A stretch of 64,000 bases of DNA from assembly GCA_029245675.1 (NCBI GenBank), contig JAQWOV010000025.1:1-64000 (forward strand), written 5' to 3'. The notes under the pieces were generated by a model. That model did not search any database, was not told the origin of the DNA, and saw nothing but the letters and a program-made list of their open reading frames with translations. The position numbers and the translations under genes are program-made. Positions within the stretch are counted from its first letter, which is position 1. Each line of letters starts with the position of its first letter. Shown one piece after another: positions 27,952-45,705 of the stretch. The stretch is from Acidimicrobiales bacterium. GTDB lineage: Bacteria; Actinomycetota; Acidimicrobiia; Acidimicrobiales; MedAcidi-G1.

Positions 27952-28830
27952 ATGCCACAAGCCGAAGCCAACGGATTAACAATCGAATACGACACTTTTG
28001 GAGACGAAACCGCCCCTCCTGTTCTCTTCATTATGGGTTTTGGAGCCCAAATGACTGCATGGCCAGAAGAGTTCCTCCAACAATTCTCCGACCAAGGCCA
28101 CCATGTAATTCGATTCGACAACAGAGACATAGGATTATCCACCCACCTCGATCACCTTGAACCGCCTGACATGGCTGAACTTTTCCTGGCCGCTTTTCAA
28201 GGAGGAGAGATTCAAATACCTTATTCTTTAAGCGATATGGCAGATGACGCCGTTGGACTCCTTGATGCCCTCGGACACGAAACAGCACACATTGTTGGTG
28301 GGTCAATGGGAGGGATGATTGCCCAACGTCTTGTCATTAATCACCCTCACAGAGTCCGGTCATTAACTTCGCTCTTTTCCATGCCGCGCCTCATCCTTGG
28401 AACCAATGAATCAACCCAAGCTCTACTTGCTGAAGACCCAGGAACTTATGAAAAACGTATCGAAGTAGCTGTAGAGACAGCCCGGTCTTTTTCTGGTGGT
28501 GGGTTTCCTTTTGACGAAGAAGAAACTAGGCAACACATGATTGAAGCAATGGAGCGTTCATGGCACCCAGAAGGGCAAGCGCGTCATGGTGCAGCCATTA
28601 TTGCTGATGGTGACCGAACCGAAGAACTTCGAAAAGTTCAAACCCCTACTCTTGTTATTCATGGAACGACAGACCCATTAGTAGTTCCAGAGGGAGGGCA
28701 AGAAACCTATGATGCAATACCTGACGCCAAAATGCTTTGGATTGAAGGTATGGGCCATGAACTACCTGAAGGAGCTTGGCCAGAAATGCTTCAAGCAATA
28801 ACTGACCTTGTCTCGTCTGTCGAAAAATAG
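27952..28830 (+). CDS. Alpha/beta-fold hydrolase
   Basis: A 292-residue serine hydrolase with the oxyanion segment IMGFGAQM, RFDNRDIGLST and the nucleophile elbow GGSMGGM. The acid and His lie in VIHGTTDPLVVPEGG and EGMGHELPEG. The arrangement resembles esterases and enol-lactone hydrolases of the same superfamily. It starts 47 bp from the divergent amidase start and stops 7 bp before the convergent aldehyde dehydrogenase gene. The substrate is not evident. Confidence 0.85.
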   Translation: MPQAEANGLTIEYDTFGDETAPPVLFIMGFGAQMTAWPEEFLQQFSDQGHHVIRFDNRDIGLSTHLDHLEPPDMAELFLAAFQGGEIQIPYSLSDMADDAVGLLDALGHETAHIVGGSMGGMIAQRLVINHPHRVRSLTSLFSMPRLILGTNESTQALLAEDPGTYEKRIEVAVETARSFSGGGFPFDEEETRQHMIEAMERSWHPEGQARHGAAIIADGDRTEELRKVQTPTLVIHGTTDPLVVPEGGQETYDAIPDAKMLWIEGMGHELPEGAWPEMLQAITDLVSSVEK

Positions 28831-28837
28831 AAGCAGC

Positions 28838-30262
28838 CTAGGGCTGCATAATAATTAGTCGCTCCTCAGTCATTTCCTTCACCGCGTAAGCTGGCCCTTC
28901 GCGAGTATTTCCTGAATCACGTATACCGCCGTAAGGCATATGGTCTGCTCGCCACGACGGCACTTCATTAATCGTGACCCCGCCAAAATCGAGAACATCC
29001 GCAGCCCGCAGAGCCTTACTTAAATCATTGGTAAACACTCCCGCTTGTAAACCATAAACAGTGTCGTTAGAGCGACTTAACGCTTCTTCAAAATCTGTGT
29101 ACGTAGCTACACCAACCACTGGACCGAAAACTTCCATACAAGAAACTTTCATCTCTGGCGTTATGCCAGTAAGAACAGTGGGAGAGAGAATTCCGTTTTC
29201 TCCTACTTCTCCGCCACAAGCAACTTCAGCACCTTCTTTAACAGCTTCAGATATCCAAGCGGCAACTCGTTCAGTTGAATCGCCATCAATCAAAGCAGTA
29301 ACTTCAGTTCCGTCATCAGAAGGATCACCGACAATCACACTTCTTGCAGTATCGACAAGTTCAGCAGTGAACTCTTCAACAATGTCAGCATGAACATAAA
29401 TTCGTTGAGTAGAGATACAGGTTTGCCCCGAATAACCAAAGATCGCTCCTCGGAGTTTTGCCACTACAGCAGCAACATCAACATCTGGTTCAATTACCAC
29501 CGGAGAGTTATTTCCCAACTCAAGAGATACTCGTTTCCTCGGGGCATCAGAGCGAATACCCCAGCCCACCTCTGGAGAACCCGTAAAAGTAATCATCGCG
29601 ACATCTTTATGTTCAACAAGATGACTTGCAGTAGAACCACCACAAGTAATGACATTCAACCATCCGGCAGGTAGACCACATTCTTCAATCAAAACTTCCC
29701 CTAAAAGAATCGCAGTAAGAGGGGTAGAAGATGCAGGTTTGAGAACAATAGGGCATCCGGCAGCAATCGCAGGAGCGACCTTATGGCAAACCAGATTCAA
29801 CGGGAAATTAAAAGGAGAGATAGCGCCCACCACTCCAATAGGAACTCTTTTAACCCAACCGGTTTTACCCACTCCAGCTGAACTGGCATCCATAGTGATT
29901 AACTCACTATTCATCGTGCGCGCTACCGCAGCGGAGAATCTGGCAGTATCGATAGCTCGACTCACTTCACCTCGAGCTAAAAGAATCGGTTTAGCTGCCT
30001 CCGCGGAAAGTAACTGAGCAAACTCTTCAGAACGAGCCGTAAGTCTCTCCGCAAGCCGATCCAGAATCGCGGCACGTTCATGTGTAGGAACCAACCCACC
30101 CTCAAGAGTTGATTTCGCTACTTCAACCGCCTGATCAATATGGGCAGAAGAGGCTTCTGGAACTGTTCCCAGAACCCGTCCATCAAAAGGTGAACAAACC
30201 TCAATAGCGTTTTCGGTATCAAGACGTTCGTCGCCCACAATCATTAAATGATGAGAAGACAT
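28838..30262 (-). CDS. NAD(P)-dependent aldehyde dehydrogenase
   Basis: The 474-residue enzyme has the family's AISPFNFPLNLVCHKVAPAIAAGCPIVLKPAS, the general base Glu in VSLELGNNSPVV and the nucleophile Cys in SGQTCISTQRIYV. It oxidises an aldehyde to an acid. Two pathways nearby produce aldehydes: amine oxidation of polyamines and formation of 2-aminomuconate semialdehyde after the ACMS decarboxylase. It could serve either, and sequence alone does not decide. It is transcribed alone. Confidence 0.88.
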   Translation of the reverse strand: MSSHHLMIVGDERLDTENAIEVCSPFDGRVLGTVPEASSAHIDQAVEVAKSTLEGGLVPTHERAAILDRLAERLTARSEEFAQLLSAEAAKPILLARGEVSRAIDTARFSAAVARTMNSELITMDASSAGVGKTGWVKRVPIGVVGAISPFNFPLNLVCHKVAPAIAAGCPIVLKPASSTPLTAILLGEVLIEECGLPAGWLNVITCGGSTASHLVEHKDVAMITFTGSPEVGWGIRSDAPRKRVSLELGNNSPVVIEPDVDVAAVVAKLRGAIFGYSGQTCISTQRIYVHADIVEEFTAELVDTARSVIVGDPSDDGTEVTALIDGDSTERVAAWISEAVKEGAEVACGGEVGENGILSPTVLTGITPEMKVSCMEVFGPVVGVATYTDFEEALSRSNDTVYGLQAGVFTNDLSKALRAADVLDFGGVTINEVPSWRADHMPYGGIRDSGNTREGPAYAVKEMTEERLIIMQP

Positions 30263-30381
30263 AGAAACTCCTTATCTGTCTCTCTGCTTATAACTCCATT
30301 AGAAACTTACCGCCAGAAAGAGATATAAGACCTCTCGGAGCCAGTAATTAACTCCAATCAAACATTAGATAATGTCTTCAT

Positions 30382-31725
30382 ATGGTGACCCCAGCTCCAG
30401 ACTCAGCATTTTTTCCACCAAGAGAAGGAAATGCCGTCACTCCGCTCATTGACGGTGGCGTGGCGTTTGATCAGATTGCTTCAACAATTGAATCAGCTAC
30501 TTCTTCTCTCTGGGTCTGTGTCGCATTCCTAGAAACAGAAGCAACTTTCCCTAACGGAAGAGGAACCTTCTTTGATTTACTAGATGACGCTGCATCTCGA
30601 GGACTAGATGTAAGGGCACTCATTTGGCAACCCGAGGGACCCTCTGCTGAAGCTGACGACACCCTATGCGCCGACGCCAAAACTGCAGAAACATTGTCCA
30701 GAAGAAATACAGGATGGCAAGCGCGCTGGGATGCCGTCGGAATCAATTGCCAGCATCAAAAAGTTTGGCTTATAGACGCGGGCACACCAAACGAAACCGC
30801 TTTTGTTGGCGGAATCAACATCACCCAAGGCTCAATGGCAAACCGAACCCACGAAGAACCTACTTTTGGAGAACGCAACGAAAGATACTCAAACATCCAC
30901 GACATTCACTGCCAAATACAAGGACCAATCACCAACGACGTCCACCAAAATTTTGTTATGCGCTGGAACAACGCATCAGAACAAAATAAAGAAAATGGAA
31001 GTTGGCCAAAGAACAAAACCAAAGACCTTCTAAAAGCAGACAAGATTGCTTCAAACGCTGGGAACGTAAAAGCTCAGATAACTCGAAGCATTCTTCCCGA
31101 CCTTTATTCTGAAATGCCCGACGGGGAAAACAGTGTTCGACAACAGTATCTAGAAGCCATAGCAGCAGCGGAAAATTACGTTTACTTTGAGAACCAAATT
31201 TTCTTAAGCAGAGCTTGTTTAGAAGTCATACACGGGGTGCTCGAAAAAGGAATACCCGTACTTGCCGTAGTCCCGGCAGACCCTATGCCCGAACTATCAG
31301 CAGCTAGATCACACCCGGGTATCGCTGCTGGCTATGAAGCATTAGAAAAATGTGGCGAATACCCAAACTTTTGCCTAGCGGCCCCCGCAGCGTTACGGCC
31401 GTGGGGTTATGAAGAAATATATGTCCACTCAAAAGCAGCAGTTATCGATGACACTTGGGCAACGATTGGTTCAACAAATCTTGTTTTCTCCTCATTTCAA
31501 GGAGACACAGAAATGAATGTTTCATTCTGGGACAACCTCACCACACGTACATTTCGTACTCAACTCTTTGATGAGCATGGGGGATTTTCCTCTGGTCAAT
31601 ATGACGGACGGGAAGCACTTGAAGAGTTAATCAAAATAGCTCACCAAAACAGAAGTAAACGGGAAGAAAATCAGCCTTTACAAGGATTTATTTATGCCAT
31701 TGATCCAAAGAATTGGGCCAAATAA
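30382..31725 (+). CDS. Phospholipase D-superfamily protein
   Basis: Two HKD half-sites are present in one chain of 447 residues: HQKVWLIDAG with GGINITQGS after it, and HSKAAVIDDTWATIGSTN. Together they form the bilobal active site of phospholipase D, cardiolipin synthase and related phosphodiesterases. There is no signal peptide or membrane span, which argues against a typical cardiolipin synthase; a cytoplasmic phospholipase or transphosphatidylase is more likely. It precedes rmuC by 44 bp with a small dyad between. Confidence 0.85.
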   Translation: MVTPAPDSAFFPPREGNAVTPLIDGGVAFDQIASTIESATSSLWVCVAFLETEATFPNGRGTFFDLLDDAASRGLDVRALIWQPEGPSAEADDTLCADAKTAETLSRRNTGWQARWDAVGINCQHQKVWLIDAGTPNETAFVGGINITQGSMANRTHEEPTFGERNERYSNIHDIHCQIQGPITNDVHQNFVMRWNNASEQNKENGSWPKNKTKDLLKADKIASNAGNVKAQITRSILPDLYSEMPDGENSVRQQYLEAIAAAENYVYFENQIFLSRACLEVIHGVLEKGIPVLAVVPADPMPELSAARSHPGIAAGYEALEKCGEYPNFCLAAPAALRPWGYEEIYVHSKAAVIDDTWATIGSTNLVFSSFQGDTEMNVSFWDNLTTRTFRTQLFDEHGGFSSGQYDGREALEELIKIAHQNRSKREENQPLQGFIYAIDPKNWAK

Positions 31726-31734
31726 ATGAACATA

Positions 31735-31751
31735 GAATGTGTGTCACATTC
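31735..31751. promoter_or_regulatory. Perfect dyad GAATGTG-TGT-CACATTC before rmuC
   Basis: Seven-bp perfect arms with a 3-bp centre, 10 bp after the phospholipase D-like stop and 18 bp before the rmuC start. It may be an operator, or a small hairpin ending the upstream transcript although no T-run follows. Its right half contains GTCACATT, matching the left arm (as reverse complement) of the dyad at 11204-11223. Confidence 0.4.
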
Positions 31752-31769
31752 ATGGTTTAAGGTGACGGT

Positions 31770-32939
31770 ATGGAAATAGTTGCAATCATCTCGTTAGTAG
31801 TCGCGGTAATAGCTGTCGTCTGGGCAGTTCGACAACCAGCAAAAACAGAAAATGCTGCCTCAAGCCCACCGGATAACGCAGCGTTGGCTCAACACATCGC
31901 CGCAGAAGTAAAAACTCAAGTATCTGAAGCTGCCACCACTGCGTTGAACGCAAACAATGAGACATTCTTGGCATTAGCAGATGAAAAAATGAAAAATCTG
32001 CAAGCCCCCCTTGATACCCAAATGAAGAAACTCGGAACTGAAATAGAAAAACTCGAAGCCTCAAATAAAACTCGTAAGGGTGCAGTAGATCAACTAATGA
32101 CCAGTCTTGGTACTCAAATATCAGAGTTGCATACAACAACTAACACACTCAGCACTGCTCTTCGTTCTCCAACGTACCGGGGGTCCTGGGGAGAGCAGCA
32201 ACTCCGAAATGTCATTGAAATGGCGGGTATGGTCCAATACTGCGATTTTGAAGAACAGGCACACGGAGAGAATCGTGAAGGCAATGTAGTACGTCCTGAT
32301 GTTCGAGTTCGACTACCAAATGGCGCCCATTTAGCCATTGATGCTAAAACACCGTATGAGCATTATGCCCTTGCGCAAGAAGCTACGGACCAAGAAACAG
32401 TAGATCTCGAATTTAAGAAACATGCTGCCGATTTAAAAAGCCACGTAGACGCTTTGGCTTCAAAAAAATACTGGGAACACAACGATGGACCAGCTCCAGA
32501 GTACGTGATCCTATTTGTTCCAGGTGAATCGTTCCTTGCTGATGCGGCTCGAGCTAGACCTCAACTACTCGAAGAAGCAATGAAAAAAAGAGTTCTCTTA
32601 GCTTCACCAGTTAACCTCCTCGCATTACTTTGGGCGGTGCATCAAGGATGGCAAGAAGCGAAAGTCTCTGAGAGCGCTAGAGATGTTGCTGAACTCGGGA
32701 AAGAACTTTATGAAAGAGCCGGTGTTTTGATTGGTCACTTTGCAACAACCGGAGCCAGACTTAAATCTGTTGTTGATGCTTTCAATAAACTCGTCGGATC
32801 ATTTGACAGCCGCTTTATGCCACAACTCAGGAAATTCAATGATCTCGGCGTAGGGGGTAAAGAGCTTGATAACCCATCTGGCATCGAAGCAACGCCACAA
32901 CTACCTCAGGCCGAAGAGCTGGAAAACTCTGGAGACTAA
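31770..32939 (+). CDS. rmuC: DNA recombination protein RmuC
   Basis: An N-terminal membrane anchor (VAIISLVVAVIAVVWAV), a coiled-coil region to about residue 125 and a nuclease-like core make the standard RmuC layout. GSWGEQQLRNVIEMAGM and VRPDVRVRLPNGAHLAIDAKTPYEHY (with the PD-(D/E)xK-like D...DAK residues) are diagnostic. RmuC limits inversions at short inverted repeats in E. coli. AAGGTGA lies 7 nt before the start. The last 23 codons and the region after the stop are present again in diverged form at 34355-34470. Confidence 0.92.
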   Translation: MEIVAIISLVVAVIAVVWAVRQPAKTENAASSPPDNAALAQHIAAEVKTQVSEAATTALNANNETFLALADEKMKNLQAPLDTQMKKLGTEIEKLEASNKTRKGAVDQLMTSLGTQISELHTTTNTLSTALRSPTYRGSWGEQQLRNVIEMAGMVQYCDFEEQAHGENREGNVVRPDVRVRLPNGAHLAIDAKTPYEHYALAQEATDQETVDLEFKKHAADLKSHVDALASKKYWEHNDGPAPEYVILFVPGESFLADAARARPQLLEEAMKKRVLLASPVNLLALLWAVHQGWQEAKVSESARDVAELGKELYERAGVLIGHFATTGARLKSVVDAFNKLVGSFDSRFMPQLRKFNDLGVGGKELDNPSGIEATPQLPQAEELENSGD

Positions 32940-32984
32940 TTGTGTTTTAACCTCATCAACTTAAGGTGATGACATACTGAGAAG

Positions 32985-34295
32985 GTGAAGAGGGTAGTTG
33001 CTGTCTCAGTTTTTGCGCTTTTGTCAATGGCATGCAGCAACAAGACAGAACCCTTTAATGAAATTTCAACGGCAAGTTTTGAGACGACAGCTCCGATTGT
33101 AAAGACGACAGCTCCGGTTGCTGAGACGACAACTCCGGTTGCAGTGACGACAATACCTCAAACATTAGAGAACCCATATCAAGGCTATATAAGCGGCCTT
33201 TATAACGATCCAGCAGTTTGGCTTTGCTGGCCAGGCGTTGATGATGCTTGTGAACGTGATCAAACAGCAACAGCTATTTATCCTGATGGAACATCTGAAG
33301 TAATTTCTTTTGAAAAGACCTCAGAATCCGCAGTTGATTGTTTTTATGTTTACCCCACAACAAGTGGAGACATGACTCCAAATAGTGACTTAATTCCTGC
33401 ATCGACAGAAGAAATTTCTACCGCATGGGTTCAAGTTTCTCGCTATAGCCAAGTATGTGACATATATGCCCCGATGTATCGACAAAAAACTAAGGCAGGT
33501 ATTTCCGGAGCTGTCGAGGTTCCAGAAGACGACTTAATAGGGGGTCCGGGTACAACTGGCTTCGAAATTGCCTATGAAGATGTTGCTGATGCCTTCAAGC
33601 ATTACATAGCAAACACAAGCCAAGAGCGTGGCTTCATCCTGATTGGACACTCTCAGGGTGCAGCAATGTTGGCGGAGCTGCTTAAAAGAGAAATTGATCA
33701 AAATCCGTTACTTCGAACCCGTCTAGTTTCCGCTCACCTTTTGGGAGGAGCGCATATAGATCAAAGCAGTAGCGAATTTGAAACAATTTCTGGTTGTAAA
33801 GATGCAAATGAGATTGGTTGCATCATTGCGTATAACACTTTCCGTATTGATGCTCTTCCTCCTTCTAATTCATGGTTCGGCCGTACATGGCATGATGCCT
33901 CGTGGAAAGATCAAGATATTTCCTGGGGAAACATCTCTTGGGATGAAGTTGTATCTAATCCTTCACTATGCGTTAACCCTGGAAATTTTGGTTCCGGTAA
34001 AGCAGAGTTAACACCATATTTTTTCCCCAATGAAGACATGGAACAGGTTTTTGAAATAACGACAACTTGGGTGACGTATCCGGGTTTACTCACTGGCGAA
34101 TGCATAAATGATGGAACGTTTGGCTATCTGTCTGTTGAGATTTTGGCTGATTATGAAGACCCTCGTGCAAGCAAAATTGTTGGAGATTTTGATCCTCAGT
34201 ATGGGTTACATGGGGTGGATATGAATATTGCTTTAGGAAATTTAATAACTGCAGCTGAAACCCAATCTATTTCTTACTTGGCTTCTAGACCCTAG
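32985..34295 (+). CDS. DUF3089-domain lipoprotein, putative secreted alpha/beta hydrolase
   Basis: A GTG start opens a lipoprotein leader (VVAVSVFALLSMAC) followed by a Thr/Pro-rich linker built on 7-residue repeats and a DUF3089 domain. That family is alpha/beta-hydrolase-like: the predicted nucleophile is Ser in GFILIGHSQGAAM, and CFYVYPTTSGD is the usual opening. It should act outside the membrane as an esterase or lipase-like enzyme on an unknown substrate. Its 3' end lies 13 bp before the left 48-bp direct repeat. Confidence 0.82.
   Translation: MKRVVAVSVFALLSMACSNKTEPFNEISTASFETTAPIVKTTAPVAETTTPVAVTTIPQTLENPYQGYISGLYNDPAVWLCWPGVDDACERDQTATAIYPDGTSEVISFEKTSESAVDCFYVYPTTSGDMTPNSDLIPASTEEISTAWVQVSRYSQVCDIYAPMYRQKTKAGISGAVEVPEDDLIGGPGTTGFEIAYEDVADAFKHYIANTSQERGFILIGHSQGAAMLAELLKREIDQNPLLRTRLVSAHLLGGAHIDQSSSEFETISGCKDANEIGCIIAYNTFRIDALPPSNSWFGRTWHDASWKDQDISWGNISWDEVVSNPSLCVNPGNFGSGKAELTPYFFPNEDMEQVFEITTTWVTYPGLLTGECINDGTFGYLSVEILADYEDPRASKIVGDFDPQYGLHGVDMNIALGNLITAAETQSISYLASRP
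33083..33157 (+). repeat. Three and a half tandem 21-bp coding repeats
   Basis: Units starting GACGACAGCTCCG at 33083, 33104 and 33125, plus a partial unit, encode TTAPIVK, TTAPVAE, TTTPVAV and TTIP. They make the flexible linker between the lipid anchor and the hydrolase domain. Such repeats can change copy number by slippage, altering linker length. Confidence 0.75.
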
Positions 34296-34308
34296 TCTTC
34301 TAGCTTTC

Positions 34309-34356
34309 AGTGCTCACGAACTTGCTAATTAGGGCCTATGGGAATAACAATACAAG
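34309..34356. repeat. Left 48-bp direct repeat of the GC-rich island
   Basis: From AGTGCTCA to ACAATACAAG this sequence recurs at 45593-45640 with one mismatch (C at 34317, A at 45601). On the left it is followed at once by the rmuC tail copy, on the right by host DNA. The sequence contains no obvious dyad of its own. It marks the insertion target or the crossover site. Confidence 0.9.
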
Positions 34357-34424
34357 AGCTTGATAACCCATCTGGCATTGAAGCAACGCCACAACTACCT
34401 CAGGGTGAAGAGTTGGAAGACTAA
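34338..34424 (+). other. Chimeric 28-codon ORF across the island junction
   Basis: An ATG inside the direct repeat (34338) reads MGITIQ and continues in frame into the copied RmuC C-terminus (ELDNPSGIEATPQLPQ...EELED) to a stop at 34422-34424. AGGG lies just upstream but at short spacing. It is probably an accident of the junction; the preserved rmuC frame is only a one-in-three coincidence. Confidence 0.3.
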
Positions 34425-34470
34425 TTGCATTTTAACCTCATCAACTTAAGGTGATGACATACTTAGAAGA
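34355..34470 (+). pseudogene. rmuC: Diverged copy of the rmuC 3' end and its downstream spacer
   Basis: The sequence matches 32861-32984: the last 23 codons of rmuC, the stop and the spacer up to the next gene's start. There are several substitutions (for example GGCATC to GGCATT, CCGAAGAGC to GTGAAGAGT) and a 9-nt in-frame deletion that removes three codons before the stop. Similarity ends around 34470, where the GC-rich DNA begins. The in-frame pattern suggests the copy evolved as a working gene end, probably in a related strain, before arriving here. Confidence 0.85.
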
Positions 34471-34473
34471 AGC

Positions 34474-35496
34474 TCATGGCGCGAGTTCGGCTTCGACCAT
34501 CGGCCGGACTTCTTCGGTGAGGCGTTCCCAGGATCTGATGATGCCGTCGACTCGGGGAACGTCGCGGTAGGCCGGGCCAGGACCCAGGATCGAATTGATG
34601 ATCACTTGATCGATGCCGAGTTCGGCTTGTGCGACGATCTCTTCGGCGATGACCTCGGGAGGCCCGACCAGCATGCGCTCGTACTCCGCTGCGTAGTTCG
34701 TGAGGTACTCGTGGCCGGTCGCGTAGACCTCGCTGCCCAGCCGCTTGAGCTCCTGGTCAATGTCGACGGCGCCGCCGTCGGTGATCCACACGGTCAGACA
34801 GCGGGAGTATTTGAGCCGAGCTGGGTCCCTGCCGATGTCGCTGCACAGGCCCTGGACCTGGTCGATAGTGGCTCGGACGTCGTCGTCCTGCTTCGAGTAG
34901 AAGTTCACGCCGTCGGCGTGACGCGCGGCGACTCGCGGCATGACCTTTCTTCCAAACACGAGACCGACCCAGATCGGGGGATGAGGGGCCTGGATCGGTT
35001 TCGGCGCGAGGTTGGCCTCCTTGAGGTGGTAGTGGGTGCCGTCGTAGGTGACCGACTCCTGGGTCCAGAGCGCCTTTATGATGTCGAGCTCCTCTTCGAG
35101 GATAGCGATGCGTTCGGCCGGAGTGGGGAACCGGAGCCCCCAGGGTTCGTATTGGTGGGGTTCGTCTCCTGGGCCCATGCCAACGTCGAGCCGCCCACCG
35201 CAGGTGTTGTCGAGCGACGCAGTCATCTTGGCGAACACGCTGGGGTGGCGCCGTCCCATTGGCGTCACCAGCGGGCCCAGTCGGATTCGCGATGTGGCTT
35301 CGCCGAGCGCACCGAGGACACTCCATGCGTCGTAGGAGGCCGCGGTGGGTTGCCACGGCACGGGTCCCACGACGTTGTCGTGGATCCACATTGAGTGGAA
35401 GCCCAGCCGTTCGGCCTCGGTGGCCATCCTTCGGACGTCGATCCAGGTGGTGTCCACCGGGATGAGATAGACGTCGAATTTGGGGACTTCAGGCAT
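34474..35496 (-). CDS. LLM-class F420-dependent oxidoreductase (island copy 1)
   Basis: The 340-residue protein has the LLM pattern: AERLGFHSMWIHDNVVGP, IRLGPLVTPMGRRHPSVFAKMTASLDNTCGGRLDVGMGPGD, TPAERIAILEEELDIIKALW and PPIWVGLV. Enzymes of this fold use F420 or FMN to oxidise or reduce alcohols, enones and ring compounds. It resembles the second island LLM (44154-45125) more than the host copies, so the two are likely paralogues. It is 20 bp downstream of the TetR gene and shares its transcript. Its stop lies within a few bases of the composition boundary. Confidence 0.88.
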   Translation of the reverse strand: MPEVPKFDVYLIPVDTTWIDVRRMATEAERLGFHSMWIHDNVVGPVPWQPTAASYDAWSVLGALGEATSRIRLGPLVTPMGRRHPSVFAKMTASLDNTCGGRLDVGMGPGDEPHQYEPWGLRFPTPAERIAILEEELDIIKALWTQESVTYDGTHYHLKEANLAPKPIQAPHPPIWVGLVFGRKVMPRVAARHADGVNFYSKQDDDVRATIDQVQGLCSDIGRDPARLKYSRCLTVWITDGGAVDIDQELKRLGSEVYATGHEYLTNYAAEYERMLVGPPEVIAEEIVAQAELGIDQVIINSILGPGPAYRDVPRVDGIIRSWERLTEEVRPMVEAELAP

Positions 35497-35516
35497 GTCG
35501 GCACCTCACCGGGTGG

Positions 35517-36206
35517 TCAGCTTGGGGTCGCGTTCGCCGCTGCGATGACGGCATCGAGCGCTGTAGGATCGGCGAGTAGCGACGCGAGGGCAGCGCTGGC
35601 GACATGGTGTGCGGCGCGTTCAGGATCGAGGCTGCCACCGGGTTCGAACCACCACGCAAGGCTCTCGACGAGGCCAAAGGTGGCGCTGAGCGCGAGCTCG
35701 GGGTCGATCGGCGAGAACGTCCCCGAGTCGATGCCGGCCTGGATGCTGGACCGGTAGAGGTCCTTGAGCTGGTCGCGTCGTTCCCAGAAGTCGATGAAGT
35801 CGGTGTCGCGGGCCTCAGGAAGCAGCATCAAGCTGGCCAGGTTCTGGTCTCCGCCGGCGAGGTTTGTGCAGTCGGTCTTGAGAAGCAACCACAGCCGGAT
35901 CTCGGGGTCGACGTTCTCGTCCAAGCCCTCGAGAGCGCCGAGCGCCGCGTCGAGGGTGCGGTCGAGCAGCTCGTGGAACATGTCCTTCTTGCGCTCGAAG
36001 TAGTGACTTAGTGAGCCCTGGCGCAGTCCGGCGGCTGCCGCGATCTGGCGCGTGGTTGTCGCGGTGAAGCCCTGCCGGAGGAAGAGATTGGCGGCCGCCG
36101 TGAGGATCTGCTCGCGCACGTCACCGTCGGGGGTCCGTCCGCTGGCGCGGGGCCTACCTACTGGCCTGCGGACCTCGAGGTCGTTGTTGAGAGTTGACGA
36201 GTCCAT
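35517..36206 (-). CDS. TetR-family transcriptional regulator
   Basis: The N-terminus reads REQILTAAANLFLRQGFTATTTRQIAAAAGLRQGSLSHYFERKKDMFHELL, a full TetR helix-turn-helix (residues about 29-80), followed by an all-helical ligand domain. It faces the importer genes across a short AT-rich divergent region, so it likely represses them and itself until the substrate or its CoA ester binds. This is the only clear transcription factor in the window. Confidence 0.92.
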   Translation of the reverse strand: MDSSTLNNDLEVRRPVGRPRASGRTPDGDVREQILTAAANLFLRQGFTATTTRQIAAAAGLRQGSLSHYFERKKDMFHELLDRTLDAALGALEGLDENVDPEIRLWLLLKTDCTNLAGGDQNLASLMLLPEARDTDFIDFWERRDQLKDLYRSSIQAGIDSGTFSPIDPELALSATFGLVESLAWWFEPGGSLDPERAAHHVASAALASLLADPTALDAVIAAANATPS

Positions 36207-36284
36207 GTGCGAAGGTTATCATACGTTTAATTATTTAATTCGTTTGCACGAAAGATATTCTGTCGTGCCGGAAGGATGAAGACC
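36207..36284. promoter_or_regulatory. Divergent AT-rich promoter region of the island
   Basis: Between the TetR start and the binding-protein start lies a short stretch that is AT-rich against its GC-rich surroundings. It includes AATTATTTAATT (perfect 5-bp arms around TT), a candidate TetR operator. GGAAGG at 36270-36275 is the ribosome site of the binding-protein gene. I cannot assign -35/-10 boxes with confidence. Confidence 0.4.
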
Positions 36285-37574
36285 ATGAAAACCATGAAAA
36301 CCGCGAAACAGTGGCGATTCGTTCTCGCGATCGTCGCAGTGTTCACCCTGTTCGCTGCTGCGTGCGGCAACGACGATGATGCAGGTATAACTACTGCTGC
36401 TCCGGCAGAGACAACTGCTGCTGCTCCGGCAGAGACAACTGAAGCGCCCGCTACTACGGCCGTTGAATTGGAGCCCGTGAAGATCGGCTTTGACTCACAG
36501 GAAGAGGAGCTGTTCTCGATCATCGAGGCCCGGATGGCTGCCGAAGCGACCGTCGCGTACATCAACGCCGAGCTTGGCGGCGTGGATGGCCACCCGATCG
36601 AGCTGATGGTCTGCACCTCGGGCGACGGGCCTGAGGGCTCGGTCGCGTGCGCTCAGGAGTTTGTGAACGACGACGACATCATGGTCATGTTGACGTCGAG
36701 CTTCTCGAGCAATGAAGCCTCAGAGGTCACCGTGCCGGCCGGGCTACCGATGCTGGCGCTCGCCAACCTCCCTGACGATTGGCAGCGAGAGACCGAGTGG
36801 ATCATGGATCCGGGCTTCTTGGGACTAATGCAGGGCCCAGTGGACTACGCGGCCGACGTTCTCGAGGTCGGTTCGATGGCGATCATCTGCGCTGACGACC
36901 CGTTCTTCCTGGAGGCGTGCGACGCAGCATCGGGCTTTGCGACTGCGGCGGGGATGGACGTGTTCGACGTGACTCCGGCCGGGTTCGAACAAGCTGACTT
37001 CACCGGCGTGGTCACCGCGTCGAACGCCGCCGATGCGGACAGCATCCTGATCGTCGTCGACGGCTCGCAGTGCGCCCCACTGGCTGATTCGCTGGCGGCG
37101 CTGTCGGTGGAGGCAACAGCACTGACCGTTGACACGTGTGCCTTTCAGGATGTAGTGGCTGGGGGAGCACTGGATGGCTGGCTGGTGTTTGGCGCGAGCG
37201 CCTTGCCCGTCGATCCGTCGCTGGCGACTGCGGAGGTCCTCGAGGGTCAGCGGATCATTGCCGAGTACGGCTCGAGCGATGCCGAGTTGTTCGGTCTCGC
37301 CGGCTGGGCGGTGGCCAATGTCCTAGCTACGCATGACGCGCTGGAGCGAGTCGGGTTCGACAACCTGAGCCGCGAGAGCGTCAACACGGCTCTGGGTGAG
37401 ACGCAGCTCGAGTTGGGCTGGTATTCCGACATTTCCTGCCCCGGTCCGGACACTTTCCCGGGCGCCTGCGTCGCTTCGGTGCTCGTGCTCGAGGTGGTGG
37501 GGGAGACCATGGAGTTCGTGAGCGTGGCCCCGATCAACTTCTCGGAGCTCTCGGAGTTCTCGGACCTCGGCTGA
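36285..37574 (+). CDS. Liv-type ABC transporter substrate-binding lipoprotein
   Basis: Three in-frame ATGs nine nt apart (36276, 36285, 36294) begin the gene; 36285 has the best distance from GGAAGG. The leader FVLAIVAVFTLFAAAC ends in a lipid Cys, then a Thr/Ala/Pro/Glu linker with an exact duplicated segment leads to the type I periplasmic-binding fold (VKIGFDSQEEELFSIIEARMAAEATVAYINAELGGVDGHPIELMVC). This is the branched-chain amino acid, urea or aromatic acid receptor family. The ligand is unknown, but the oxidative genes downstream make an organic acid or aromatic compound more likely than leucine. Confidence 0.87.
   Translation: MKTMKTAKQWRFVLAIVAVFTLFAAACGNDDDAGITTAAPAETTAAAPAETTEAPATTAVELEPVKIGFDSQEEELFSIIEARMAAEATVAYINAELGGVDGHPIELMVCTSGDGPEGSVACAQEFVNDDDIMVMLTSSFSSNEASEVTVPAGLPMLALANLPDDWQRETEWIMDPGFLGLMQGPVDYAADVLEVGSMAIICADDPFFLEACDAASGFATAAGMDVFDVTPAGFEQADFTGVVTASNAADADSILIVVDGSQCAPLADSLAALSVEATALTVDTCAFQDVVAGGALDGWLVFGASALPVDPSLATAEVLEGQRIIAEYGSSDAELFGLAGWAVANVLATHDALERVGFDNLSRESVNTALGETQLELGWYSDISCPGPDTFPGACVASVLVLEVVGETMEFVSVAPINFSELSEFSDLG
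36396..36440 (+). repeat. Duplicated 21-bp coding unit in the binding-protein linker
   Basis: GCTGCTCCGGCAGAGACAAC plus T occurs at 36396-36416 and again at 36420-36440, separated by GCT. It encodes AAPAETT twice, the flexible linker after the lipid anchor. The host DUF3089 lipoprotein has an analogous repeat-built linker. Confidence 0.75.
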
Positions 37575-37617
37575 TCCACTAGGATCCGCTAGTGCATTGT
37601 CATAGGTCGCGGCCGTC

Positions 37618-39684
37618 GTGACCATTTACATACAGTTCCTCCTGATCGGCATCGGTACAGGCGTGATCATTGGGGCGCTGGCGGTTGGTCTCACTCTGTC
37701 CTTTCGTGCATCGGGGGTGATCAATTTCGGTCATGGCGCCATCGCGACCTATGTCACCTATGTGTACGTCGCGATGCGCCAGGACGGTGAGTACCCGATC
37801 CCCCCGTTACCGAACCCGATCGCGATGTTGTTCGGTATCCTCAACTGGTTCGGCGCCGATCTCGATGCACCAGACATACCCACAATTATCGACGTCGGGG
37901 ACGGCACGTCGATTGCTATCGCGGTGCTGGTCGCGATGGCGACCTCGGTTCTGCTCGGGTTGGCAGCGCACTTCCTTGTGTTCCGGCCGCTGCGTTACGC
38001 TCCACCCACCGCGAAGATTATGGCGTCGATCGGCATCTTGTTGACGCTGCAGGCGATCGTCGTGCTCCGGTTCGGTGCACGAGCTAGGCGCGTGGAGTCG
38101 CTGCTTCCCAACGAGACCGTGTCCGTGGTCGGCACGGACATCCCTCGTGACCGCTTCGTCTTGTTGGCATTGCTCATCGTCATCACGATCGCACTGTGGG
38201 CGGTGTTTCGATACACCCGCTTCGGGGTTGCGACCAGAGCAGCCGCGGAGAACGAGGAAACCGCGACGTTGTTGGGTTATTCGGCGGACTTCCAAGCTGG
38301 CATCAGCTGGGTTGTTGCCAGCATGATCGCCGGCGGTGTCGGGATCCTCGTGGCATCGATCACCGGGCTTACGCCATCTCGGCTGACGTTGCTCATTGTG
38401 CCTGCGGTGGCGGCTGCGCTCGTTGGGGCCTTCTCATCGTTTTGGACCTCGGCGCTTGTGGGGGTCGCGATCGGCATGTTGCAGAGCTTGATTTTCATTC
38501 TCGAGCAGCGCCAGGACTGGGTCCCCGACCTGGACCTGGCCGAGGTGTTGCCGCTGGTGTTGATCGGGGTGGCCATGTATGTCCGCGGGAACGTGATCCC
38601 GGGTCGGGGCACGAGCAGAGCAGAGCGACTCCCGCTCGCGTACGCCGATCCGATCAGGCCCGGACTGGTGGTGGCGGGAGTTCTGATCATGGCCGCGGCG
38701 GTGACCTGGCTTCCGTTCGAGTACCGGAACGGGTTGAACAATTCCATGATCGGCGTGATGTTGGCCCTGAGTCTGGTGGTCGTTGTCGGATACGTAGGAC
38801 AGGTCTCGCTGGCACAGGTTGCGCTTCAGGGCATCGCAGCCTTCGCTATCGGCTCGTATGTCACCGAGGCCGGTATCCCGTTCCTGATTGGGTTTCCGCT
38901 GGCGGTCGCCACCTCGGCCGTGTTCGGCCTCGTAGTGGGGCTTTTTGCGTTGCGTACTAGGGGCTCGAGCCTGGCGATCGTGACGCTCGCGGCCGGGATC
39001 GCGATCGAGGCGATGCTGTTCCGACGGGACGGGTGGTTTGGATCGTCGGCTCGAGGTCGTGCGGAGGCGCCGTCGCTGTTCGGGTTCGAGTTCGGGGCAG
39101 CGTCGGACTTTTTCCTTGGCGACGACAAGCAACCCTCCCCAGCGCTCGGTGTCTTGATACTGGCGGTCACCGCAGCGGCGTGCCTGTTGGTCGCGCTCGT
39201 GCGCCGAAGTCCGACCGGCGAGCAGATGCTCGCGGTGAGAGCGAACGAACGGGCCGCGGCCGCGGCGGGGGTCGATGTGGCCCGAATCAAGCTCTTGGCG
39301 TTCAGCATGAGCGCGGCGCTGGCTGGCGCGGCTGGCGGGTTGAAGGCCTCTCAACTCGGATCATTTCAGGCAGATTCGTTTGGCTTCGTCGCCTCGCTCG
39401 TGTTGATCGCCTATGCCTACCTTGGGGGCATCAGCACGGTCAGCGGCGCCCTCTGGACCGGGACGCTGGTGGGAACTGGTGTTGGCACTGTGTTCGGCGA
39501 AGAGTTCATTCTTCTGGGCCGGTACGAGACGTACATCGCAGGCACGTTCCTGATCCTCGAGCTGGCATTCGACGCCGACGGCATTGCGGGGTCCACGCGG
39601 CGGTTCAAACGCTACGTCGTTGGTCGTTCCAGAGAGTTCTGGGCGCGAAAACACTCCCGACCCGAAGAGGCGGTATCGCTATGA
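37618..39684 (+). CDS. Fused LivH-LivM branched-chain-type ABC permease
   Basis: The GTG-started 688-residue protein joins both permease subunits in one chain. Residues about 1-310 are LivH-like (TLSFRASGVINFGHGAIATYVTYVYV); residues about 345-640 are LivM-like (YVGQVSLAQVALQGIAAFAIGSYVTE and FSMSAALAGAAGGLKA). The usual two proteins of about 300 residues each are thus covalently coupled, a form known in some actinobacteria. It overlaps the ATPase start by 4 bp. Confidence 0.9.
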   Translation: MTIYIQFLLIGIGTGVIIGALAVGLTLSFRASGVINFGHGAIATYVTYVYVAMRQDGEYPIPPLPNPIAMLFGILNWFGADLDAPDIPTIIDVGDGTSIAIAVLVAMATSVLLGLAAHFLVFRPLRYAPPTAKIMASIGILLTLQAIVVLRFGARARRVESLLPNETVSVVGTDIPRDRFVLLALLIVITIALWAVFRYTRFGVATRAAAENEETATLLGYSADFQAGISWVVASMIAGGVGILVASITGLTPSRLTLLIVPAVAAALVGAFSSFWTSALVGVAIGMLQSLIFILEQRQDWVPDLDLAEVLPLVLIGVAMYVRGNVIPGRGTSRAERLPLAYADPIRPGLVVAGVLIMAAAVTWLPFEYRNGLNNSMIGVMLALSLVVVVGYVGQVSLAQVALQGIAAFAIGSYVTEAGIPFLIGFPLAVATSAVFGLVVGLFALRTRGSSLAIVTLAAGIAIEAMLFRRDGWFGSSARGRAEAPSLFGFEFGAASDFFLGDDKQPSPALGVLILAVTAAACLLVALVRRSPTGEQMLAVRANERAAAAAGVDVARIKLLAFSMSAALAGAAGGLKASQLGSFQADSFGFVASLVLIAYAYLGGISTVSGALWTGTLVGTGVGTVFGEEFILLGRYETYIAGTFLILELAFDADGIAGSTRRFKRYVVGRSREFWARKHSRPEEAVSL

Positions 39685-40436
39685 GTTCGCCGGTATTGAC
39701 CACCGACGGGTTGAGGGTGAGCTTCGGCGGCGTGCATGCTCTGACCGGCGTCTCGATAGACTGCCGCGTCGGTGAGCTCACTGGCCTCATTGGGCCCAAC
39801 GGCGCCGGGAAGACGACCTTCATCGACGCCGTTACCGGGTTTCTACCAGCGAATGCGACCGGCAGCGTACGCCTCGATGGCAACGAGGTCACCGGTTTAG
39901 CTCCGCATGTGGTGAGCCAACGTGGCTTGAGCCGGACTTGGCAATCCGGTGAGTTGTTCGAAGACATAGACGTGGCCGCGAACCTGTCGGTTGCAAGCGA
40001 ACCACTGTCGCTACGCCGTGGCCTCACCGGCCTGTGGCGTAATGATCGCTGCGACCGGATCGATGAGGTGCTCGAGCAATTCGACCTCACCTCGGTCGCG
40101 GATCGTCTGCCTCAGGAGCTCTCGCAAGGCCAGCGCAAGATGGTCGGCATCGCGCGGGCGCTGGTGACCCAGTCACGAATCGTCTTGTTGGACGAGCCGG
40201 CGGCGGGGCTCGACCGAAATGAGACCCGGTGGCTCGGCGAACGACTGCGTGACATGGTCGAAGCGGGAGCGTCGCTGATGCTCGTCGATCACGACATGGA
40301 CCTGGTATTGTCGGTGTGCGACCGCATCCACGTGCTCGAGTTCGGCAGCCTGATCGCCACGGGGACCCCAAGCGAGATCCGTAGCGACCGGCGAGTGATC
40401 GAGGCCTACCTCGGCGAGGGAAGTGCGTCGAGATGA
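39681..40436 (+). CDS. livG: ABC transporter ATP-binding protein (LivG-like)
   Basis: The true start is ATG 39681, overlapping the permease stop (ATGA); a longer in-frame reading that begins inside the permease gene is spurious. Walker A GPNGAGKTTF, signature LSQGQRKM, Walker B IVLLDEPAAGLD and the switch His in LVDHDMDLV are all intact in 251 residues. SQRGLSRTWQSGELFEDIDVAANL is the LivG-specific region that contacts the permease. It works with the LivF-like ATPase. Confidence 0.92.
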   Translation: MSSPVLTTDGLRVSFGGVHALTGVSIDCRVGELTGLIGPNGAGKTTFIDAVTGFLPANATGSVRLDGNEVTGLAPHVVSQRGLSRTWQSGELFEDIDVAANLSVASEPLSLRRGLTGLWRNDRCDRIDEVLEQFDLTSVADRLPQELSQGQRKMVGIARALVTQSRIVLLDEPAAGLDRNETRWLGERLRDMVEAGASLMLVDHDMDLVLSVCDRIHVLEFGSLIATGTPSEIRSDRRVIEAYLGEGSASR

Positions 40437-41152
40437 CTGAGACGCTGCTGGATGTGCGCGGCCTCCATGCTGGTTATGAGGGGGTTGCCGTCGTCCGGGA
40501 CCTCACCATGCACGTGAACGCAGGTGAGATAGTTGCGCTGTTGGGGGCCAATGGCGCTGGCAAGACAACGACACTTCGCACGATCTCTGGGCTCGTCGAC
40601 CGCTACGGCGGTGAGGTTACCGTGCTCGGAGGCCCAGTACCAAAGTTGCGACGCGCCTATGAGGTTGCGCGTCGGGGGATGGCACACGTTCCCGAGGGTC
40701 GCGGCGTGCTCGCAGAGCTCACCGTACGAGAGAACCTGTTCCTAGCCAAGCGGCGTGGCGAGGTAGACTACGACCATGCGTTGGACTACTTCCCTGCACT
40801 GGGCAAGCTCATCGACCGCCAGGCAGCGCTCCTGTCGGGCGGAGAGCAGCAGATGCTCGTCGTGGCCCGGGCGATTCTCGGCGACCCGAAACTCCTCGTG
40901 ATCGACGAGTTATCGCTCGGTCTTGCTCCGATCGTAGTCGCCGAGCTGATACCCATCGTCCGGCGCTTCGTCGAAGAAACCGGCGCAGGCGCGTTGCTGG
41001 TCGAGCAGTATGCCGAGATGGCCCTTACACACTCTGACCGGGCCTATGTATTAAGGCACGGAGATCTGGTGCTCGAGGGCACCGCAGCGGACCTGTTGGC
41101 CGATCGGAGCCGGCTCGACGCGGCCTACCTGGGCGGAGGCGAGACCGAGTGA
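40433..41152 (+). CDS. livF: ABC transporter ATP-binding protein (LivF-like)
   Basis: The second ATPase, 239 residues, has Walker A GANGAGKTTT, the LivF mark RGMAHVPEGRGVLAELTVRENL, signature LSGGEQQML and Walker B LLVIDELSLGLAP. The switch residue is in LVEQYAEMAL, where LivF usually has Gln rather than His, as here. It starts inside the livG stop (ATGA) and its own stop overlaps the next start (GTGA), so the operon is translationally coupled throughout. Confidence 0.92.
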   Translation: MTETLLDVRGLHAGYEGVAVVRDLTMHVNAGEIVALLGANGAGKTTTLRTISGLVDRYGGEVTVLGGPVPKLRRAYEVARRGMAHVPEGRGVLAELTVRENLFLAKRRGEVDYDHALDYFPALGKLIDRQAALLSGGEQQMLVVARAILGDPKLLVIDELSLGLAPIVVAELIPIVRRFVEETGAGALLVEQYAEMALTHSDRAYVLRHGDLVLEGTAADLLADRSRLDAAYLGGGETE

Positions 41153-41394
41153 GTATCGACACCTTCCTCGCAACTGTCGGCGTTTCTATTCTGCTCATCG
41201 CCTTCGTGTTGAACCTCCGCGGCTTGCTCACCCCGACCGACATCCGGTATCAGGCGATGAACGCGGTGGGATCCGGACTGGCCTGCGTTGCCTCGATCAT
41301 GATCGGGTTCTTCCCGTTCGTCGTGCTCGAAGGCGTGTGGTTCGTCGTTGCGGCGAGCGCGTTGCTGGGCCTGCGGTGGGCGGCACGGTCGTGA
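41149..41394 (+). CDS. Small CBU_0592-like membrane protein
   Basis: An 81-residue protein with three hydrophobic segments. DIRYQAMNAVGSGLACVASIMIGFFPFVVLEGVWFVVAAS resembles the CBU_0592 domain (YQxLNxxGxxx... PxxxLNxxW), which has no known biochemical function. GTG start with a 4-bp overlap to livF, and the downstream MBL gene overlaps its stop in the same way. Being locked into the operon, it may help the importer or anchor a soluble enzyme; that is inference. Confidence 0.7.
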   Translation: MSIDTFLATVGVSILLIAFVLNLRGLLTPTDIRYQAMNAVGSGLACVASIMIGFFPFVVLEGVWFVVAASALLGLRWAARS

Positions 41395-42203
41395 GGCGGC
41401 GACTCCAGCTGGACCGCGTCGACAATTGGTGGACGCAGCGGCGCATCAGTGAGCGGATCACGCTACTCAGCGAACCCCACGTCACGGAGTTCCTCCGCTG
41501 CAACGTCTGGCACATCCGAGGACAGAACTGCGATCTCGTCGTCGACACGGGCCTAGGCCTCGCGCCATTGGTGCCGCTGCTCGATTTGTCTGAACACTCC
41601 CAAGTAGTAGTGGTGCTGACCCACACCCACGCCGACCACGCTGGAGGATGGGACGAGTTCGACGAACGATACGTTCATCATCTCGAGGCCCATCACCTCG
41701 ACCCTCAGACTGGGGCACCAGACCTCGACACATTATGGGCAGCCGCTCTCGAGGAAGCCGAGCACGAGCACATGAGCGACGCCGGCTACGACATCCCCGA
41801 CTGCTTCGTGACCGCACTCCCCGCCGGATTTCCCGACGTCGAGACGTTGCCATTTCGGCCAGCGACGGCCACCCGTCTGCTCGACGAAGGTGACCGAATC
41901 GACCTCGGCGACCGAGCGTTCGAGATCCTGCATCTCCCGGGACACTCGCCAGGCAGCATCGGCCTCATCGATCGAGACGCGAGGCTCCTGATTTCGGGCG
42001 ACGCAATCTACGACGGCCCGCTCCTCGACGGGCTCCCGGGAAGCGACATCAGCGCCTACCTCCACACCATGGACCGGCTTCGTGGCCTCGATGTCGAACT
42101 GACGCTGCCCGGCCATGGCGAACCCTTCGGCGGCGAACGCCTCCACGCCATCGCCGCCGAGTACCTACGCAAGCCCACGAACCCGAAAGACGCCCATCCA
42201 TGA
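41391..42203 (+). CDS. MBL-fold metallohydrolase
   Basis: I place the start at GTG 41391, overlapping the previous stop (GTGA); an upstream in-frame ATG lies inside that gene. The metal site is THTHADHAGG (HxHxDH), with the later His ligands in ILHLPGHSPGSIGL and TLPGHGEP and the bridging Asp in LLISGDAIYDG. Metal-binding residues therefore look complete. The family includes lactonases, thioesterases, glyoxalases and quinolone-type ring hydrolases, and the 270-residue length suits a lactone, thioester or amide hydrolase. It is a plausible later step in the island pathway. Confidence 0.87.
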   Translation: MRRRLQLDRVDNWWTQRRISERITLLSEPHVTEFLRCNVWHIRGQNCDLVVDTGLGLAPLVPLLDLSEHSQVVVVLTHTHADHAGGWDEFDERYVHHLEAHHLDPQTGAPDLDTLWAAALEEAEHEHMSDAGYDIPDCFVTALPAGFPDVETLPFRPATATRLLDEGDRIDLGDRAFEILHLPGHSPGSIGLIDRDARLLISGDAIYDGPLLDGLPGSDISAYLHTMDRLRGLDVELTLPGHGEPFGGERLHAIAAEYLRKPTNPKDAHP

Positions 42204-42952
42204 AGACCGCCACCCACGCCGACCGCCCAGACCTGCTAGCACAGTTCGAATCCATGGAGTCGGGCGCCTTCCCCACCTTCATGCTCCACGACTCTGTCTG
42301 GAACAACCACTGGCCACTCATCCTCGACGCCTTCCCAGAGTTGCAACTCTACGTCATCGACGAAGACACCCTCGCCGGTGTCGCGAACACCGTCCCGATC
42401 GCATGGGATGGCTCGATCGACGATCTGCCGGCGAGCGAACACGACGTCTTGTCCAGAGCACTGCGCGACCGCGACGAAGACAGAACGCCAAACACCCTCG
42501 TTGCCATCCAAGTAGCCGTTGCCGACGCATACGCAGGCACCGACGCCACACGGTTCGCGATTCAGCAAGCGAAGGGGCTGTGCGCCGACCGAGGGATCGA
42601 TCACCTCATCGCTCCGGTCCGACCCACGTTGAAGCACCTGTACCCGACCATCGAATTCGCCCGCTACATCGACTGGCACCGGCCTGACGGGCTCCCTTTC
42701 GACCCTTGGATCCGAACTCAGGTCCGCGGTGGAGCGCGTCGCCTCGCGGTCTGCGCTGAACCGATGACGTTCGAGGGCACCGTCGGGGACTGGGAGTCTT
42801 GGACCGGACTTACGCTCCCCGAAAGCGGCGATTACGTCATTGACGGCGCGCTGGAGTTGCTCTCCGTCAATGTCGAGGCCGATCACGGTCGCCTCAAAGA
42901 ACTCAACGTCTGGTACTGCTACGACATCACGGCCGAGGAGGCCCTCCGATGA
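42200..42952 (+). CDS. GNAT-like protein of unknown substrate
   Basis: The 250-residue protein has a plausible acetyltransferase fold: LQLYVIDEDTLAGVANTVPIAWDG early, and AIQVAVADAYAGTDATRFAIQQAKGLCADRGIDHLIAPVRPTLKHLYP, where the last part resembles GNAT acceptor regions. The classical acetyl-CoA Q/RxxGxG/A loop is not clear by eye, so catalytic activity is uncertain. Both ends overlap neighbours by 4 bp (ATGA). It might modify a pathway acid or amine, or bind a CoA ester. Confidence 0.55.
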   Translation: MKTATHADRPDLLAQFESMESGAFPTFMLHDSVWNNHWPLILDAFPELQLYVIDEDTLAGVANTVPIAWDGSIDDLPASEHDVLSRALRDRDEDRTPNTLVAIQVAVADAYAGTDATRFAIQQAKGLCADRGIDHLIAPVRPTLKHLYPTIEFARYIDWHRPDGLPFDPWIRTQVRGGARRLAVCAEPMTFEGTVGDWESWTGLTLPESGDYVIDGALELLSVNVEADHGRLKELNVWYCYDITAEEALR

Positions 42953-44154
42953 CCGACCCCGCGCCCCTGCTCACTGACGCGGAGCTCGCCGCCCTCCGGG
43001 CCCCGATCGAGACCGCCCGTACCCTCCCGCGGCGGGCCTTCACCTCTGAGGAGTACTTCGATCGCGAGCGCCGCCGCATCGCAGAGCGCAACTGGCTTGC
43101 GGCCTGCTTCGGCGATGAGATTCCGGACGCTGGCGACGCCCGCCCCATCGACCTTTGGGGCTTACCCATCGTCGTAGTGCGCGATCGGAGTGGAGTGCTT
43201 CGTGCGTTCCACAATGTCTGCGCCTACGACGGATGCCCGGTTCTCACCGAGAACGTGCAAGGCGCTGAGGCGCTCACCGCGGCATACCACGGCTGGTCCT
43301 ATAGCCTCGACGGTGAACTCGTTGATGCACCGTTCTGGGCTGGCCCACCCGGCAACGCTGCGGACAGCGTCGCCCCGGAACATCGTCGACTCGTCGAGAT
43401 CGGCATCGCCGAGGCGGTTGGCATTGTCTTCGTGGACCTCTTCCCAGACGTAGCGAAGCCGGCTTTCGATGATCACGTCGCTCCGCTGCTGGCTTTGCTG
43501 GATCAGGTTGCCGTCGATGACCTTCGACTCGCGCGTGGGAGCGATGGAGAGCCTGACGTCTTTGAGGCGTCCATCCGAACAAACTGGAAGACCTTCGTTG
43601 AGAACGACTGTCTCAACATCCTGCACGAATCCTTCACCCACGACCTGTATCGTGCCAGCCCTGAAGTACCTCGGGTGACTCCCGATGGGAGCGCGCGGTT
43701 CAAGGCCGAATGTGACGGCAACGTCATGGGCTTCTCCTACGCCGAGACCGACGTTGTCGCGACCTACCCCGAGATCGACCTGCCCGACATTGGAACGTCG
43801 GGCCCTCTGACCCGAGGGCTGTTCGCCCAGCTCTATCCCAACGTTTCGATCGCGATGATACCGACGATGATCGCGCCCGTCCTGCAGTTCCCCGAACGCG
43901 CTGGGTTGACCAGGGTGCGGGGAGCGTCGTTGGTGCACCTCGACGTTGCCGGCCCCGCCCATGCAGCTGCACGAGCAACAGCCAACGACGTGTTCGCAGA
44001 TGCGGCAGCCGAAGACATCGTCGTAGTCGAAGGAATTCAGGCGGTGCGGGCGTCCCCAGCCCGAGATACCGGGTTCTACTCGCCATTCTGGGACCGGCCT
44101 CACTATGAGTTCTCCAAGCGGGTCGCTGCGGATCTCGAGCGCGAGCACTTCTGA
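42949..44154 (+). CDS. Rieske-oxygenase-family alpha-subunit-like protein with a degenerate Rieske site
   Basis: Overall this is a ring-hydroxylating oxygenase alpha subunit (401 residues). The iron site looks kept: NWKTFVENDCLNILHESFTH gives His226 and His231, and Asp356 fits the carboxylate ligand. The Rieske site is not. The first motif reads C91-A-Y93-D-G, where CxHxG is normal, and the second reads A111-A-Y-H114, where CxYH is normal. One His and one Cys are therefore missing, confirmed codon by codon. The residue that usually bridges the two centres is Asn223. It may be an active non-Rieske iron enzyme, a pseudo-enzyme or one with an altered cluster. Confidence 0.8.
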   Translation: MTDPAPLLTDAELAALRAPIETARTLPRRAFTSEEYFDRERRRIAERNWLAACFGDEIPDAGDARPIDLWGLPIVVVRDRSGVLRAFHNVCAYDGCPVLTENVQGAEALTAAYHGWSYSLDGELVDAPFWAGPPGNAADSVAPEHRRLVEIGIAEAVGIVFVDLFPDVAKPAFDDHVAPLLALLDQVAVDDLRLARGSDGEPDVFEASIRTNWKTFVENDCLNILHESFTHDLYRASPEVPRVTPDGSARFKAECDGNVMGFSYAETDVVATYPEIDLPDIGTSGPLTRGLFAQLYPNVSIAMIPTMIAPVLQFPERAGLTRVRGASLVHLDVAGPAHAAARATANDVFADAAAEDIVVVEGIQAVRASPARDTGFYSPFWDRPHYEFSKRVAADLEREHF

Positions 44155-45125: not shown

Positions 45126-45127
45126 CG

Positions 45128-45556
45128 ATGGGTGTTCCCAACGCCGCCCATCCGATCGTGGAGGTGATCCTGGCGTGGTACCTCGGCGGCGACCACGCCG
45201 CCGAGCTCCCTGATCTGTTGTCGCAAGAGGTCGTGACCACGGACTGGATGAGCCCTGGGAAGCAACTGATTGGTCCGGTCGCGTTCGTCGAAGAGATGAT
45301 GGAAGCATCCGCAGTTGCCTTTCCAGACGCCACCGAGGAGATCCTCGCCGTCGTCTTCGACGGCTCGTCGTTGGTCATCCACGGCCGGTTTCGTGCCACG
45401 TTCGCGGCGAGTTACTACGGCGTCGATGCCCACGGCGGACCGCTGGAGTGGGAGATTGTGGACCGGTGGGAGATCGTGAACGGTCTGATCACTGAGGTGA
45501 GGTTCGGTGCGGACACGCGCGCGGCTTGGGCTCAGATCGTGCCTGGCGGCAACTAG
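45128..45556 (+). CDS. SnoaL/NTF2-like protein
   Basis: A 142-residue alpha+beta barrel protein: an N-terminal helix ending AWYLGGDHAAELPDLLS, a middle LIGPVAFVEEMMEASAVAFPDATEEI, and a final sheet with EWEIVDRWEIVNGLITEVRFGAD. This is the SnoaL-like/NTF2 pattern used by small isomerases, cyclases and dehydratases, and also by beta subunits of ring-hydroxylating oxygenases, which share the fold. Given the oxygenase-like gene two before it, a beta-subunit-like role is possible. It is the last gene of the island operon. Confidence 0.72.
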   Translation: MGVPNAAHPIVEVILAWYLGGDHAAELPDLLSQEVVTTDWMSPGKQLIGPVAFVEEMMEASAVAFPDATEEILAVVFDGSSLVIHGRFRATFAASYYGVDAHGGPLEWEIVDRWEIVNGLITEVRFGADTRAAWAQIVPGGN

Positions 45557-45592
45557 ATGTCACGCCGTGGTGGCTCGCCATCGCTGACTTAA

Positions 45593-45640
45593 AGTGCTCA
45601 AGAACTTGCTAATTAGGGCCTATGGGAATAACAATACAAG
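45593..45640. repeat. Right 48-bp direct repeat of the GC-rich island
   Basis: The second copy of the repeat at 34309-34356, 47 of 48 bases identical. It begins just after the composition returns to host-like (about 45585-45592) and is followed by AT-rich host spacer leading to the next gene. An ATG in it (45622) opens a 20-codon frame of no apparent meaning. Confidence 0.9.
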
Positions 45641-45705
45641 TGATAGCCAAATTCCTGTCTTGTCTAAATTTTAAATTTAAATAAAAAATTGAATACGGAG
45701 AAAAT

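Follow-up and report, generated by a model that had tools for sequence, protein, structure and literature searches.

A copy of the rmuC 3' end of sister-species type marks a probable recombination scar in a variable interval of an Acidimicrobiales chromosome

The DNA under study (the window, 64,000 nt) is contig C24 of an Acidimicrobiales assembly (G000) made of 33 contigs, 1.87 Mb long and 94% complete. It hosts the genome's own intact rmuC gene (31770-32939, plus strand, 389 aa; Pfam RmuC, 3.8e-83), relatives of which occur in 34 of 48 genomes of the family. On the same strand rmuC is followed by a DUF3089 gene (32985-34295; Pfam PF11288, 4.8e-45) and by the left copy (34304-34356) of a 53-bp direct repeat. 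Comparison of the repeat, the resident rmuC and the rmuC of a relative (G001) showed that the last three bases of this unit, AAG (34354-34356, plus strand), overlap the start of a 115-nt copy of the rmuC 3' end (34354-34468, plus strand). An 11.1-kb cluster of genes with about 63% GC (34469-45587) comes next, and is closed by the right copy of the repeat (45588-45640, plus strand). The gene order of the genus resumes with a small gene lacking Pfam matches (45706-46068, plus strand, 120 aa), which is next also in G001 and in another relative, G005. The overall order is rmuC-DUF3089-repeat, then rmuC tail-cluster-repeat.

The rmuC-tail copy is a genuine feature, and the lineage from which it derives has been identified. 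A sequence-only reading of this DNA had noticed a diverged rmuC end carrying an in-frame 9-nt deletion, and this has been confirmed, with coordinates agreeing within 1-2 nt. A repeat finder returned two overlapping pairs (32860-32928 with 34354-34422, 93% identity; 32922-32984 with 34407-34469, 87%), and a targeted search of the DNA located 3' of rmuC gave a single match (125 alignment columns, 87.2%, E 7e-33). The copy differs from the resident rmuC by 7 substitutions and one in-frame gap of 9 nt, near 34417/34418. Its translation, ELDNPSGIEATPQLPQGEELED-stop, is in the rmuC frame and retains the stop. Exactly at its right end the GC content steps from 0.41 (34357-34468) to 0.63 (34469-34600). 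Comparable rmuC-tail copies 3' of rmuC are missing in 19 other loci of the family.

The copy was compared with the genomes of the genus, seven besides G000, each representing one species. The closest match is the native rmuC of G001, an intact gene (386 aa) with the identical 9-nt deletion; aligned without gaps, it agrees with the copy at 113 of 115 positions. At the eight variable columns of the stretch the copy sides six times with G001 against the resident rmuC, once with the resident rmuC, and has one private base; the sole column shared with the resident gene, 34358, is at the left edge. G005, a similarly close relative, has a different rmuC end again, devoid of the 9-nt deletion. Since an intact native gene of G001 has the same deletion, this is an allele inherited from a relative, and not the result of decay in place. 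The earlier suspicion that an in-frame loss is unlike decay in place is thus borne out.

In the family, the locus has a conserved frame, made of PLD-rmuC at one end, and of a CN-hydrolase gene and its neighbours at the other. The interval between rmuC and the CN-hydrolase gene varies, ranging from 0.14 kb (G009, G016) up to 15.7 kb in the window; in other members of the family it measures several kb, and includes amine oxidase and/or phosphotransferase genes. In G005, about 300 bp separate rmuC from the 120-aa gene, and neither DUF3089 nor the cluster is found here. In G001, rmuC' (the allele with the deletion) is followed by DUF3089 and by 23 nt, after which come the terminal 98 bp of the cluster, the 53-bp repeat and, finally, the 120-aa gene. 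The cluster remnant corresponds to 45490-45587 of the window (plus strand), and is identical at 96 of 98 positions to 6197-6294 of the G001 locus (L016). The 23-nt filler which joins DUF3089 to the remnant (L016, 6174-6196) has no match in the window. The repeat of G001 is followed by 21 unknown bases (N), which calls for some caution on this assembly. In G003 and G004 (L018 and L019) the DUF3089 gene, the repeat and about 60 bp beyond it lie together at an unrelated place, with no rmuC tail and no cluster; the gene and its 3' flank therefore seem to move as one block.

It had also been proposed that the copy comes from a relative in which rmuC directly precedes the island. A relative with the deletion exists, G001, but the direct order does not occur in it, because the DUF3089 gene and the 23-nt filler are interposed and the cluster is for the most part absent; an rmuC' with the complete cluster immediately behind it, the form expected of a donor, has been detected in none of the genomes. 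Yet, because the last 98 bp of the cluster persist at the same spot in G001, the rmuC-tail copy and the GC-rich cluster are linked in the G001 lineage.

Clear families could be assigned by Pfam/NCBIfam to 10 of the 11 genes of the cluster. They encode a luciferase-like oxidoreductase, a TetR regulator, an ABC transporter of the branched-chain amino acid/urea type (binding protein, fused permease, two ATPases), a metallo-beta-lactamase-fold protein, a Rieske oxygenase, a second luciferase-like oxidoreductase and a SnoaL-like protein; the remaining gene encodes an unknown protein. The whole reads as a transferred metabolic cluster and, as judged from these families, it likely serves to take up and oxidise an organic compound. 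The GC content stays high up to 45587. From one luciferase-like gene to the other, gene order is shared with three Acidimicrobiales genomes (L046-L048), at about 65-75% DNA identity, and the gene without family has its best relative, at 62% identity, in a different family of the order. Within the family of the window, by contrast, the cluster as a whole has no counterpart, and the matches retrieved were short and weak, the genus-level pieces aside; the DNA from 41330 to 45600 matched only the window itself among 395 genomes of the class at 1e-50. On the basis of GC content and relatives, we infer that the cluster was acquired at an earlier time from another Acidimicrobiales family.

Both halves of the window order look like complete cargo versions of one spot, each with an rmuC end on the left and a repeat on the right. 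The copy would be the left edge of the locus version of a sister lineage, and the arrangement is probably the result of two haplotypes joined in tandem, by one illegitimate junction and homologous closure. In the model proposed, a single exchange, later than the arrival of the cluster from another family of the order, would have joined a chromosome segment rmuC-DUF3089-repeat, in which DUF3089 is the cargo of the first haplotype, to a segment rmuC' tail-cluster-repeat. The illegitimate join would have connected the end of the repeat to a position in rmuC' some 70 nt short of its end, using the 3-nt AAG overlap. The other side would have been closed by ordinary homologous recombination, with the repeat or the flanking genes as anchor; both offer homology for such joining. 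A crossover in the right repeat and the genes beyond would make the cluster DNA the incoming partner. Alternatively, a crossover in rmuC and the genes before it would make the DUF3089 DNA the incoming one, and the old rmuC' end would have been left stranded.

Most of the weight for an origin of G001 type lies with the shared deletion and the linked substitutions. Identity levels add to this. The copy and the cluster end are identical to G001 at 209 of 213 positions, the adjacent 2.5 kb at 93.2% (Fisher p = 0.003), a difference that favours transfer after the species split, although equally high identity also occurs further out. Along the left side identity between the two genomes ranges from 88 to 99.6%, along the right side from 90 to 98.6%, values that would suit either half as the incoming one; the figure of 98% is therefore suggestive, not decisive. 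Replacement flexible genomic islands are expected to show a raised substitution rate at their boundaries; in plain percentages, identity here is 88-95% beside the junctions (32845-34303 and 45588-45987) and mostly 96-99% further out (28095-30094 and 46088-47157), yet 91-96% also at 30345-32844.

The sequence-only reading had suggested that either a circular molecule or a homologous exchange had carried rmuC tail, island and repeat. The exchange, with a homologous anchor and one illegitimate junction, makes the simpler account; a circle could have served, but is unneeded. A circle that arose in a relative, included the rmuC' tail, the cluster and the repeat, and entered the chromosome through a single crossover within the 53-bp repeat would account precisely for the order seen, two repeat copies included, and these differ in their first 14 nt only. 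Its closing, however, needs the same illegitimate joint plus an extra step. No integrase or transposase is found among the cluster genes by Pfam/NCBIfam, no recombinase or replication gene is at hand, and the 11.5-kb stretch matches nothing in plasmid and phage collections. The repeat copies themselves add a mild argument. They are 94% identical, all three mismatches fall within the first 14 nt, and at these sites the right copy sides with G001; their last 39 nt are identical to each other and differ from G001 at 2 sites. The 3' parts of both copies, on the evidence of these five sites, seem to be of recipient type; had a circle come from a G001-like donor, the left copy would tend to have a donor-type half. 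We regard the circle as unlikely. Somewhat less credit still goes to the view that the tandem is old, and that rmuC-DUF3089-repeat-rmuC tail-cluster-repeat was already present in the common ancestor of G000 and G001. According to this view, G001 deleted the middle, and the rmuC end of G000 changed later. The G001 sequence of DUF3089, filler, last 98 bp of the cluster and repeat is indeed what a deletion within the window's arrangement would produce. Yet replacement of the G000 rmuC end is required, and the tail and the cluster end are closer between the two genomes than the adjacent 2.5 kb, though they are non-coding or truncated in one of them.

Strain mixing is common at variable spots of metagenomes, and contigs of two strains could have been joined by the assembler at the 53-bp repeat, which has 39 identical nt on its 3' side. 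The joint to the rmuC tail is located beyond the repeat, however, and its 3-nt overlap is too short for assembler use. The left junction is present in one assembly only, but the junction between cluster end and repeat recurs in a second, separate one (G001), and both flanks exhibit the gene order expected for the genus. An artefact is thus improbable to a marked degree. An integrative element inserted at the rmuC 3' end was also considered and rejected, because what lies between the two gene ends is DUF3089 with the repeat, and not the cluster, and because the cluster lacks an integrase gene. The window has no tRNA genes.

The tandem joining of two haplotypes may be compared with known systems. 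The arrangement resembles the outcome expected of homology-facilitated illegitimate recombination, a process known in Streptococcus pneumoniae, Acinetobacter baylyi and Pseudomonas stutzeri, in which illegitimate joints mostly feature overlaps of 3-10 bp (PMC3240628). As in that process, one side is fit for homologous joining, and the other is a short-overlap joint, AAG being at the lower limit of the range; by our own estimate, 3-nt overlaps are found by chance in about 1 of 20 random joins. In contrast to that process, loss of resident DNA is not evident relative to G001 and G005, which need not be the parent haplotypes, and about 11 kb have been gained, compared to an average of about 1 kb. 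The process further involves RecA and the uptake of linear DNA. Usual components of natural transformation are comEC and dprA; both are present in G003 and G004, and undetected in 6 of the 8 genus members, G000 and G001 included, which counts against the model. It would be a long shot to suppose that one-sided recombination, acting repeatedly in bacteria devoid of the usual transformation genes, stacks several versions of cargo in tandem at the spot between rmuC and the CN-hydrolase gene, and that the genus consequently has an undescribed route of DNA uptake or transfer.

Stranded 3' ends pushed behind new cargo have been described in Vibrio T6SS arrays and Rhs loci, where displaced 3' ends and orphan immunity genes are found (PMC5361080). 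Here too cargo follows a conserved gene, and the 3' end of the old gene is stranded downstream, but in the window the gene whose end was left behind is a conserved chromosomal one, and the cargo is a cluster for transport and oxidation. Replacement flexible genomic islands of aquatic prokaryotes are exchanged at one locus via homologous recombination (PMC4033161). Similarly, the site described in this work is a single one, flanked by conserved genes, and hosts different cargo in close relatives. Whereas in those islands one version replaces the other, the window holds both in tandem in one chromosome.

The feature, in short, is a recombination scar, well marked and of an already known kind, at a spot that varies in the family; it is no new genetic element. 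It is a clear footprint of gene-cluster trading among uncultured bacteria. Diagnostic sites sufficient to name a donor lineage rarely survive in such scars; here the 9-nt deletion and the linked substitutions do. The scar also shows how a cluster from another family could pass between sister species without mobile-element genes of its own.

A minor observation concerns the substrate-binding gene of the cluster. The linker after its lipid-attachment site (36375-36472) has about 95% DNA identity to the linker of a genus-native amino-acid-binding lipoprotein gene (contig C20 of G002, contig C25 of G007), with shorter matches in contig C2 of G000, C15 of G001 and C16 of G005. It contains an internal duplication of about 24 nt, and outside it the gene resembles those of other Acidimicrobiales. 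The segment looks like a host linker grafted into an incoming gene.
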